23,073 nucleotides of DNA from a virus: positions 1 to 23,073 of the IMG/VR virus record IMGVR_UViG_3300008107_001259. One strand, 5' to 3'. Under the pieces are notes generated by a model. The model worked only from the letters and a program-made list of their open reading frames with translations, had not been told where the DNA came from and ran no database searches. The position numbers and the translations under genes are program-made. Below, one piece after another: positions 2,619 to 15,935 of this stretch (the stretch's first letter is position 1; every line of letters begins with the position of its first letter).

Positions 2619-3080
2619 ATGATTAAGATTGGAATAGACCCCGGCCTGTCTGGTGCCATCGTCATTATGGAAAGTAACTCTCCGATTGAGTGGCAACGGA
2701 TGCCAACAATGAAGACGGGCTCGGCCAATCGGGTGAACGCGCCAGCTCTGGCTGCCATGATCAAGCCGTATCTGTACCTTGATAAACCACTTCATGCGTA
2801 TGTCGAGCTGGTGAGCAGTATGCCCGGCCAAGGTGTAGCTTCGATGTTCTCATTCGGTCACTCGGCAGGCGTGATCCAAGGTGTGCTCGGTGCGTTTGAG
2901 ATACCTGTGACGATGGTGACGCCCAGTCAATGGAAGAAGCGCGCGGGTCTTACTGGTCAGGACAAGGATGCTTCGAGGACATTGGCCATCCAGATGTGGC
3001 CGTTCTGGCGTGAGCTGGACAAGAAGGGCGCCGGCCAAGCTTATGCTGATGCGGCATTCATTGCACTCTACGGAGATTGA
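2619..3080 (+). CDS. RuvC-like Holliday junction resolvase
   Basis: This 153-residue protein has the RNase H-fold layout of RuvC-type resolvases, metal-dependent nucleases that cut four-way junctions during recombination or before packaging. The first acidic residue is D7 in MIKIGIDPGLSGA, the second is E63 in AYVELV, and the third site is D144 in the C-terminal helix (AYADAAFIALY). SQWKKRAGLTG with a following DKDASR is typical of phage and bacterial RuvC relatives. Length matches the family. The upstream A-rich leader (GAAAGAAAATT) gives only a weak ribosome-binding site. It diverges from the recombination operon and is closed by the terminator at 3135, so it is probably a one-gene transcript. 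Confidence 0.88.
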   Translation: MIKIGIDPGLSGAIVIMESNSPIEWQRMPTMKTGSANRVNAPALAAMIKPYLYLDKPLHAYVELVSSMPGQGVASMFSFGHSAGVIQGVLGAFEIPVTMVTPSQWKKRAGLTGQDKDASRTLAIQMWPFWRELDKKGAGQAYADAAFIALYGD

Positions 3081-3134
3081 TGTAGAATAAATTCCGGCAA
3101 GCAGTTGCCACTCTCCTTTGTTGGGTTTGCTTTG

Positions 3135-3164
3135 CCCCCGGGCTAATCACTCGGGGGTTTTTTT
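3135..3164 (+). terminator. Rho-independent terminator after the resolvase gene
   Basis: CCCCCG (3135-3140) pairs with CGGGGG (3152-3157), with an 11-base loop, and is followed at once by seven T residues. It ends the rightward resolvase transcript 54 bases after its stop codon. Confidence 0.88.
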
Positions 3165-3165
3165 A

Positions 3166-3180
3166 ATTAACAGTGTTAAT
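3166..3180. promoter_or_regulatory. 15-base perfect inverted repeat, copy 1
   Basis: ATTAACA-G-TGTTAAT is a perfect inverted repeat with one central base. The same sequence recurs at 15877 and 15921, and with T as the central base at 11251. It lies just after the resolvase terminator, at the left border of the RNA-like region. A dimeric regulator's operator is the simplest reading. Confidence 0.6.
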
Positions 3181-3192
3181 ATCAATACGCAT

Positions 3193-3210
3193 GGGGATTG
3201 ATCAGTCCCC
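3193..3210 (+). other. Small hairpin before structured element 1
   Basis: GGGGA (3193-3197) pairs with TCCCC (3206-3210) around an 8-base loop, TTGATCAG, which itself contains the palindrome TGATCA. It ends six bases before the closing stem of the first structured element, so it may be part of the same RNA. No T run follows. Confidence 0.45.
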
Positions 3211-3216
3211 AGCCGT

Positions 3217-3302
3217 GTTGGTGGAAAGCGGGTTAGCGCCGCTTGTTTTTCCTTTTCGGTTTTTACACAAACACTGCTTCATGTGCCCACCAACTTTTTT
3301 TT
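3217..3302 (+). ncRNA. Structured RNA-like element, copy 1, with terminal T run
   Basis: An 8-base closing stem (GTTGGTGG 3217-3224, CCACCAAC 3287-3294) encloses a 6-base hairpin with the 7-base loop GTTAGCG (3226-3244). A variable T-rich stretch follows, then the block AAACACTGCTTCATGTG (3269-3285). Eight T residues follow the closing stem, so it would also end transcription as an intrinsic terminator. A second element at 3471-3564 repeats the loop region and the 17-base block inside an unrelated closing stem. I know no named RNA family with these blocks. A folded DNA element is the main alternative. Confidence 0.6.
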
Positions 3303-3311
3303 CGTAGGGGC

Positions 3312-3342
3312 TTGACAAACCCAAATCGTTTCAGTTTATAAT
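3312..3342 (+). promoter_or_regulatory. Promoter for the putative small RNA
   Basis: A perfect TTGACA (3312-3317) and a perfect TATAAT (3337-3342) are 19 bases apart. TTTATA at 3335 gives 17-base spacing. It is among the best sigma-70-like sequences in the window and has no protein gene directly downstream. Transcription would begin near 3349. Confidence 0.65.
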
Positions 3343-3348
3343 TCGTTC

Positions 3349-3466
3349 AGCTAGGTGTGAGAACCAATGCGATAGAGCCGTTAATGAAATCCCGACCCCT
3401 TTGGGGTAGCGCGTCAGCCACAAGCTGGGGTGTTCTCTCACCGGGGTTTCATTAACGGCTTTTTTG
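3349..3466 (+). ncRNA. Putative phage small RNA with long closing stem and pseudoknot potential
   Basis: This stretch runs from the promoter to an intrinsic terminator and has no credible reading frame. AGCCGTTAATGAAA (3376-3389) pairs perfectly with 3447-3460. The stem continues inward through one T-G wobble and CCCG/CGGG, about 19 pairs in all, and T residues follow. Inside are two small hairpins, ACCCC-TTT-GGGGT (3395-3407) and CAGC-CACAA-GCTG (3415-3427). A 5' hairpin (GGT/ACC, 3354-3365) presents the loop GTGAGA, which is fully complementary to TCTCAC at 3436-3441 inside the long stem, so a pseudoknot can form. No known family is recognised; an antisense or regulatory RNA is likely. Confidence 0.62.
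3376..3465 (+). terminator. Intrinsic terminator formed by the small RNA's closing stem
   Basis: The long stem (arms 3376-3394 and 3442-3460) is followed by T residues at 3460-3465, then G and four more T residues. It both closes the RNA and should end transcription. The stem is much longer than a terminator needs, which suggests the fold itself matters. Confidence 0.65.
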
Positions 3467-3470
3467 TTTT

Positions 3471-3564
3471 TGAGACTGGGATTGTTTGTCGGGTTAGCGC
3501 CGGCATCTCCTAAACGGACGAAATGTTTTGAAAACACTGCTTCATGTGGTCAGTCCCAGTCTCA
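3471..3564 (+). ncRNA. Structured RNA-like element, copy 2
   Basis: An 11-base perfect closing stem (TGAGACTGGGA 3471-3481, TCCCAGTCTCA 3554-3564) encloses a 6-pair hairpin with the loop GTTAGCG (3487-3505) and the block AAACACTGCTTCATGTG (3532-3548). The block and the 13-base hairpin core match copy 1 exactly, but the closing stem is unrelated in sequence. The hairpin stem here contains one pair (3489/3503) that is T-G on the plus strand and A-C on the minus strand, so plus-strand RNA is favoured. Unlike copy 1, no T run follows. Confidence 0.6.
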
Positions 3565-3823
3565 TCTCTCACACGCAGCCGTCAGAGCGCGTTAGCTAAT
3601 GGCCTGTATGGGCTGAACTCAAGAAACACAGAACCTCGGCGTGACCCGCGCCTCCAAGTAGAGTAATCGAACGGAATAAACAAGGATGTCGAAAGACAAA
3701 TACCCTAGTACGCTGGGAGTTGATCGTTAAGGATGGTGCAAACTGACCTTATCGGGATCTCAGGGGAGGGCGGCTTGGCTGGCCGGTAGCTCACTTAACA
3801 ACTGGGCAAAGCTAGGAGGTAAT
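3565..3823 (+). other. Leader region before the early operon, no gene recognised
   Basis: About 260 bases between structured element 2 and the first early gene. It contains a third TCTCAC (3567-3572) that could also pair with the small RNA's GTGAGA loop. It also has a fragment resembling the hairpin loop (GCGTTAGCT near 3586) and a 14-codon reading frame at 3686. I see no clear promoter, tRNA or terminator. It is most likely the untranslated leader of the rightward early operon. Confidence 0.4.
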
Positions 3824-3991
3824 ATGGAAAATGATACAACAAAGCGTTTCCCACGCACGATGCACGAAGCGTTTAACTGCGATAGTGATCCCATCAGTGG
3901 GCCATATGGTAAGCAGCCGTTCTGGCCGGTGTATGCGATCTTCTTCATTGTGATCATTGCTGGGATCGTTGTGTTCTGGAGTCGCGTATGA
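3824..3991 (+). CDS. Small single-span membrane protein (55 aa)
   Basis: The gene opens the rightward early operon with an excellent ribosome-binding site, AGGAGG, at good spacing. The first 35 residues are polar (MENDTTKRFPRTMHEAFNCD, then SDPISGPYGK). The rest is one strongly hydrophobic helix, about residues 36-53 (FWPVYAIFFIVIIAGIVVFW), ending SRV. The N-terminus is probably in the cytoplasm or periplasm depending on host topology rules; I cannot decide. Its TGA overlaps the next gene's ATG (ATGA). Function is unknown. Small phage membrane proteins can act in superinfection exclusion or host takeover, but nothing specific is visible. Confidence 0.75.
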   Translation: MENDTTKRFPRTMHEAFNCDSDPISGPYGKQPFWPVYAIFFIVIIAGIVVFWSRV

Positions 3992-11224: not shown

Positions 11225-11250
11225 TTAAAAATCTCCGTTTTGTTGGGTTA

Positions 11251-11265
11251 ATTAACATTGTTAAT
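11251..11265. promoter_or_regulatory. 15-base perfect inverted repeat, copy 2
   Basis: ATTAACA-T-TGTTAAT differs from the other three copies only at the central base. It sits in the gap before the Api92-like gene, at the border between the leftward cassette and the GC-rich block. Outside the arms TTA and TAG follow, so part of the flank is also symmetrical. Confidence 0.6.
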
Positions 11266-15780: not shown

Positions 15781-15875
15781 GGGTGGGGGGGTGCAAAAAA
15801 ATCCTGACACCGTCCTCGACTTTGATAAAGAATGACCCCCCTATGTGTTTCGTATACAAAAAAGGGTGGGGGGGT
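15781..15875 (+). repeat. Duplicated G-rich motif GGGTGGGGGGGT
   Basis: The 12-base motif occurs at 15781-15792 and 15864-15875, each after an A run of at least six bases, apart from the GA that precedes the first copy. A C-rich stretch (ACCCCCC) lies between them near 15835. Together they could form a G-rich structure or a hairpin with the C stretch. No gene lies here. It is a candidate part of a packaging or control site. Confidence 0.5.
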
Positions 15876-15876
15876 A

Positions 15877-15891
15877 ATTAACAGTGTTAAT
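15877..15891. promoter_or_regulatory. 15-base perfect inverted repeat, copy 3
   Basis: ATTAACA-G-TGTTAAT, identical to copies 1 and 4, directly after the second G-rich motif and 44 bases (centre to centre) from copy 4. The distance is about four helical turns, allowing two bound dimers on one face. Confidence 0.6.
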
Positions 15892-15920
15892 TCGAACCTT
15901 GCATGAAACTTACAAAGCTA

Positions 15921-15935
15921 ATTAACAGTGTTAAT
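15921..15935. promoter_or_regulatory. 15-base perfect inverted repeat, copy 4, over a promoter -35
   Basis: ATTAACA-G-TGTTAAT, identical to copies 1 and 3. It overlaps the -35 position of the candidate promoter at 15931-15960, so a bound dimer would block polymerase. This is the classic layout of a repressor operator. Confidence 0.6.

Follow-up and report, generated by a model that had tools for sequence, protein, structure and literature searches.

Two related elements in a viral DNA stretch of 23,073 nucleotides (IMG/VR record IMGVR_UViG_3300008107_001259, the whole of which is called the window here) were confirmed by comparative sequence analysis as members of a large structured-RNA family. 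Covariation between aligned relatives was decisive for a structured RNA. The best reading of the element is a cis-acting 5′-leader RNA that is recognised by a host gene-expression factor.

Two structured elements in the window

A sequence-only reading of the window had proposed two elements sharing a 13-base hairpin core and a 17-base block. Both were located again: the blocks CGGGTTAGCGCCG and AAACACTGCTTCATGTG lie at 3229-3241 and 3269-3285 in copy 1 (spacing 27 nt) and at 3490-3502 and 3532-3548 in copy 2 (spacing 29 nt). The parts of the two copies are as follows.

3217-3294, + strand: element copy 1, whole (P1 to P1′), 64 bits with covariance model R1
3217-3224, + strand: copy 1, P1 5′ strand GTTGGTGG, 8 of 8 pairs with 3287-3294
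3226-3244, + strand: copy 1, P2 hairpin AAGCGG-GTTAGCG-CCGCTT, 6 bp, arms 3226-3231 and 3239-3244, conserved loop 3232-3238
3245-3270, + strand: copy 1, variable stretch from P2 to the conserved 3′ block
3272-3285, + strand: copy 1, P4 hairpin CAC-TGCTTCAT-GTG, with P4 covariation at the family level
3287-3294, + strand: copy 1, P1 3′ strand CCACCAAC, T8 immediately 3′
3471-3564, + strand: element copy 2, whole, 70 bits with model R1
3471-3484, + strand: copy 2, P1 5′ strand TGAGACTGGGATTG, 14 pairs with 3551-3564, G-U included
3487-3505, + strand: copy 2, P2 hairpin TGTCGG-GTTAGCG-CCGGCA, loop 3493-3499
3535-3548, + strand: copy 2, P4 hairpin CAC-TGCTTCAT-GTG
3551-3564, + strand: copy 2, P1 3′ strand

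The closing stems had been described as unrelated in sequence and as 8 and 11 pairs long. The unrelated sequences and the 8 pairs of copy 1 stood, but the stem of copy 2 has 14 pairs with G-U counted, not 11. Model R1, whose training alignment included both window copies, scored 10.8 bits at its next best site in the window. Folded as single sequences, copy 2 scored well (z -3.5) and copy 1 poorly (z -1.1); the case for structure is carried by the comparative evidence. Coding potential across the elements had been named as a point against an RNA. No + strand ORF of at least 60 aa spans either element, the only frame there being a spurious one of 68 aa on the - strand.

Relatives in phage genomes

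With any 15-45 nt allowed between its blocks, the exact pattern was present in 63 further IMG/VR viral contigs; the closing stems were paired in nearly all of them, and many had an unrelated stem sequence. A relaxed pattern matched at least 120 stretches, with CACTGCTTTATGTG as the commoner form among the matches listed. At least 120 stretches also matched a pattern that excluded A at the central P4 position and set no constraint on the opposite base. A pattern with altered P2 loop closing matched 113, few of which passed the structural filters. Together, the patterns matched several hundred IMG/VR contigs at least. Among the matches listed, 241 distinct elements passed the structural filters, 125 of them non-redundant.

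The carriers are hundreds of phage sequences, mostly from freshwater, and these phages probably infect freshwater Betaproteobacteria. When 48 phage records, which may be fragments, were searched with the model, each gave one strong match or two neighbouring ones; the lowest true score was 47 bits and the next 19 bits, with an empty gap between. In bacteria and archaea (84,980 species) the pattern was found in only five contigs, from Pseudorhodoferax (two), Achromobacter dolens, Variovorax and one Armatimonadetes MAG. The covariance model, run with stricter filters, matched 2 of 399 Burkholderiales genomes, one being the centre genome itself. An AlpA-like protein, a DUF2514 protein and a family A DNA polymerase are encoded beside some of the bacterial matches, which is consistent with prophages but is not proof. 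A blastn search of GenBank phages and plasmids with the region and the consensus element did not find the element. At the sequence level, these searches showed an RNA family confined for the most part to phages and a small number of probable prophages.

Fold and covariation of the family

The family fold consists of the variable closing stem P1, a junction 'GUG', the 6-bp hairpin P2 with its GUUAGCG loop, a variable stretch of 11-50 nt, the P4 hairpin CNC-UGCUNNAU-GNG and P1′. In 71 aligned sequences, 86.5% of the pairs of the P1-P2-P4 structure were standard, and the covariation score was 0.390, compared with a mean of 0.130 after shuffling and at most 0.147 after sliding. Both sides changed in 16 of 24 pairs, including all nine outer pairs of P1 and four of the six pairs of P2; the 24 also count four pairs that would join the two loops, and these, being invariant, are uninformative about such a contact either way. 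This contact would be a kissing of the P2 and P4 loops through AGC/GCU, whose bases are invariant in the alignment and so give no covariation signal for or against it.

The clearest compensation was seen at the middle pair of P4, whose partner base had been left free in the scan pattern. Among the 241 distinct elements from the matches listed, this pair was A-T in 161, G-C in 38, T-A in 31 and C-G in 8, with zero breaks. In 17 of the 241 the loop-closing nucleotides of P2 switched jointly from G.G to U.U. The 125 non-redundant elements among the matches listed contained 91 distinct P1 strands; J1/2 was mostly GUG, J4/1 mostly AG or AA, and the stretch between P2 and P4 (J2/3) was without conservation. 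The invariance of the loops is in part a product of the search patterns, and GGGTTAGCGCC was retained even in second copies recovered with mismatches permitted.

Conserved loops on replaced but still paired stems had been taken in the sequence-only reading as the mark of a structural RNA. The family bears this out: P1, P2 and P4 covary far above the shuffled and slid controls, and the homologues keep their closing stems paired. That reading had also favoured plus-strand transcription from a single T-G pair in copy 2. Across the family, G-U pairs outnumbered A-C pairs by 35 to 5 within the helices, indicating selection on the RNA of the + strand, and promoters are aligned to the 5′ end of P1.

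Surroundings of the two copies

The following features surround the copies in the window.

2619-3080, + strand: gene for a RuvC-like Holliday junction resolvase (phrog_1770, E 6.6e-36), upstream of copy 1
3134-3158, + strand: intrinsic terminator of the RuvC-like gene, followed by a T run
3184-3221, + strand: array-arm remnant hairpin, a = AATACGCATGGGGATTG (3184-3200) and a′ = CAGTCCCCAGCCGTGTTGG (3203-3221), only 'AT' between them
3312-3342, + strand: sigma-70-like promoter TTGACA-19-TATAAT, between the copies
3349-3468, + strand: putative small RNA ending in an intrinsic-terminator-like hairpin (arms 3376-3394 and 3442-3460, T run)

The a′ arm runs into the 5′ strand of P1 in copy 1. In relatives (L137, L070, L126, L087, L095, L150), the element is surrounded by arrays in which inverted arms alternate (AACACGCATGGGGATTG / CAGTCCCCAGCCGTGTTGG and variants). 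The arms enclose differing structured inserts, some of them shared between phages, and the element is one such insert. These arrays look recombinogenic, and together with the U run at the end of copy 1 they could point to a DNA-level element, acting as single-stranded DNA in recombination or replication, or to a trans-acting small RNA. We consider this quite improbable, because the excess of G-U over A-C pairs reflects selection on the transcribed strand as RNA, the element is placed at start sites, and most copies lack a U run directly past P1′.

The promoter at 3312-3342 was read from the sequence, its 19-nt spacer being outside the range of the promoter scan; relatives carry a promoter at the same location with spacers of 17-19 nt. 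The hairpin that follows it is very stable (-54.5 kcal/mol, z -8.0), and the promoter-hairpin module recurs between element copies in relatives. There, the 5′ segment of the small RNA forms a pseudoknot with sequence inside the hairpin, and the two sides covary (GTCGGAG/CTCCGAC, GTTGCGA/TCGCAAC, GTGGAAG/CTTCCAC, GTCGTGT/ACACGAC and more). No Rfam match was obtained for this pseudoknotted RNA of 3312-3468, and from these comparisons the module looks like a second new RNA family.

On the 3′ side of copy 2, about 260 nt (3565-3825) are noncoding ahead of the first gene. Positions 3576-3629 are 83% identical over 54 bp to Caudoviricetes sp. MW202484.1, and the segment is thus probably another conserved part of the leader. 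Elsewhere in the window, the palindrome TAATTAACAGTGTTAAT occurs at four intergenic sites (3164-3180, 11249-11265, 15875-15891 and 15919-15935) and is a candidate phage operator or promoter element. Between 11000 and 15000, where the genes form a - strand block, the GC content rises from about 0.49 to 0.57-0.59; this block may have been acquired as an accessory module. Two further recurring candidate RNAs with varying closing stems were noticed near the element in relatives: an intergenic motif AAAGCGGATGC(TG) ... CGCAGCGAGTACC (L045, L048, L078, L079, L086, L095, L150) and a block GTTAAGCCAGC.TTCGAGGATG ... TTTTCTGGCTTTC ... TTGAAG.CC.AATCGAGCCC (L040, L075, L126).

Predicted transcription start at the closing stem

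All start sites given here were predicted from sequence. A -10 box with at least 5/6 matches ended 5-7 nt 5′ of P1 in 50 of 225 elements, and exactly 6 nt before it in 34, compared with a background of 0.42 per position farther upstream. Many start-site elements have a perfect TTGACA-16-TATAAT. Given this placement of the sigma-70 -10 box, P1 would start at +1. In at least a fifth of cases, then, the element was shown to begin at a predicted transcription start, and the 5′-terminal bases of the transcript would therefore be paired in P1. Both window copies lack a -10 box at P1.

The fetched contigs contained 268 strong promoters, 25 near an element and 243 others. A stem of at least 9 pairs starting 5-7 nt past the -10 box was found at about 22 of the 25 and at 4 of the 243. 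The idea of a 5′ stem at every promoter of these phages was thus rejected, the stem being specific to the element. Start sites at the array arms 'a' were also looked for, and no enrichment was seen. Among the 125 non-redundant elements, 31 are start-site copies; 11 have a weaker -10 box, 25 lie in arrays, 12 directly follow a T run and 46 lie elsewhere.

5′-terminal stems stabilise bacterial mRNA, as in ompA. P1 at +1 could likewise shield the message from pyrophosphate removal and 5′-dependent RNase E, and the conserved loops may compact the domain or bind a shielding protein. Copies away from start sites would become 5′ ends by cleavage, for example in the U run before copy 2. The many loci with P1 at the predicted +1 and the 12 copies directly after a T run agree with such a role in stability or processing. 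However, a plain stem would suffice for it, leaving the strict conservation of loops and junction unexplained; other strong promoters rarely begin with a stem, and the element occurs only once or twice per record. This explanation is possible but doubtful.

A ribosome-binding site and start codon lie within 160 nt downstream in 22 of the 31 start-site copies, and within 30 nt in 19, indicating that the element is the whole 5′ UTR in those 19. A cis-regulatory site through which a host or phage regulator controls translation of the next gene would fit this spacing. It seems unlikely, since the next genes differ among phages and other copies, copy 2 included, are 60-250 nt or more from a gene. 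Moreover, there is no anti-Shine-Dalgarno signal. A switch of this kind through the variable stretch was tried and rejected: CTCC/TCCT was present in 14 of 44 copies near a ribosome-binding site and in 31 of 81 others, and the Shine-Dalgarno sequence of the element's own locus fitted no better than a swapped one.

The next robust gene is on the strand of the element in 77 of 97 loci. The following genes vary (DNA helicase, primase, terminase small and large subunits), and RuvC-like resolvase genes are also neighbours. In one record (G045) the element lies between divergent genes, and the same-strand genes that it leads extend over at least 21 kb. In two others (G034, G041) it is followed by only some three genes, so a long operon is not general. 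Terminator-like sites were found downstream at 21 of 105 loci, compared with 6% of random windows, and upstream at 31 of 105. Within 1.5 kb downstream they had no clear strand preference (15 same and 12 opposite in the class with predicted starts). Because of the upstream sites and the unclear strand bias, this enrichment was not counted in favour of antitermination.

Comparison with known RNAs

That the element belongs to no named RNA family had already been suspected. Rfam 15 (4227 models) at the gathering score gave zero matches in the window and none on the element in 28 relatives, in agreement with this. At E up to 10, Rfam gave only chance-like matches, none of them spanning the element in its own fold, and string and topic searches of the open-licence literature did not find the element. 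In relative L086, the Betaproteobacteria-1 RNA (RF02932, 101 bits) was found at 1481-1598 on the - strand, directly past a terminator-like hairpin. It is a separate RNA, about 0.6 kb downstream of the element, and its family matches neither the element nor any part of the window.

The purine-type riboswitch is a three-way junction in which P1 varies and each of two hairpins has a conserved loop. The element shares this layout, with conserved loops of 7-8 nt that may kiss. In purine-type riboswitches the ligand-binding junction, J2/3 included, is conserved, whereas J2/3 of the element is 11-50 nt and unconserved. Also unlike these riboswitches, the element is phage-restricted and is not beside metabolic genes. 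A metabolite sensor with such a three-helix junction would agree with the layout, and P1 and T8 of copy 1 could serve as a terminator stem. It is nevertheless very improbable, given the near absence of the element from bacterial genomes, the missing association with metabolic genes, the unconserved J2/3 and the lack of an Rfam riboswitch match. Small ribozymes occur in phages, and a compact junction carrying conserved nucleotides could suggest self-cleavage. The conserved bases, however, lie chiefly in hairpin loops, no Rfam ribozyme matches, and P1 at +1 leaves no 5′ part to be removed, making a ribozyme very improbable.

EAR RNA is a processive antiterminator of Bacillales. It resembles the element, as proposed, in being a leader RNA that promotes read-through of an operon; it differs in its hosts, and it has no sensible Rfam match on the element. 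The nearest working counterpart is the put RNA of phage HK022, which suppresses pausing and termination through the zinc-binding domain of the RNA polymerase β′ subunit. Its putL site lies just 3′ of a promoter and requires no phage protein, and the two stem-loops of put are arranged in a V, with an RNA triplex in stem I (PMC9378689). Like put (PMC9378689), the element is a phage cis-element of about 70-100 nt with two related copies per genome, and it shares the promoter-proximal position in the 50 of 225 elements with P1 at a predicted +1. Its fold is not the two-stem-loop triplex of put, being a P1-closed junction with P2, P4 and other conserved sequence. Model R1 scored at best 8.6 bits (E about 1) in the 26.5-31.0 kb region of HK022, where the positions of putL and putR were not pinned down, and a block search there was negative. 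A resemblance of UGCUUUA to boxA was noticed and judged unconvincing.

Proposed mode of action

Each element would form one domain of a phage mRNA leader, through which the phages probably govern the handling of the message by the host machinery. Because phages with different neighbour genes share both loop sequences, the partner is more likely to be host-encoded than a phage protein. Judging from these varied neighbourhoods, RNA polymerase or its elongation factors, the ribosome or the RNase machinery are the likelier partners.

Antitermination, by an RNA like put with a different fold, is the likeliest single mechanism, with a probability of roughly one in three. The nascent element would fold on leaving RNA polymerase, with P1 and the junction displaying both conserved loops, which are perhaps in contact through AGC/GCU. 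The folded element would then bind the elongation complex, which would resist pausing and terminating as it makes that transcript. Copy 1 would act on transcripts arriving from upstream, and copy 2 on transcripts begun near 3349 that have read through the hairpin terminator. Copy 2 sits 3′ of this local terminator rather than 5′ of it, which counts against antitermination, as do the short gene runs behind some elements and the many elements, both window copies included, that lack a -10 box at P1. Since the fold also differs from that of put and the downstream terminators are not clearly strand-biased, antitermination is a leading guess only.

Tentatively, the element may represent a further, independent class of RNA-only transcription modifiers. 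A 5′-terminal three-helix RNA would on its own reprogram the host elongation complex from within the first 80-100 nucleotides, and its closing stem could be exchanged freely because it doubles as an array arm among structured RNA modules.

This is a new RNA family, one with no Rfam entry and no name in the open-licence literature searched. In function it is most likely one of the cis-acting phage leader RNAs, a broad kind that is already known. An abundant RNA family at predicted starts of phage mRNAs has thus gone unnamed, and the covariance model eases its annotation in viromes and prophages. Loop mutants and P1 swaps offer a handle on how phages take over host gene expression, and the family may lengthen the very short list of protein-free RNA modifiers of RNA polymerase.
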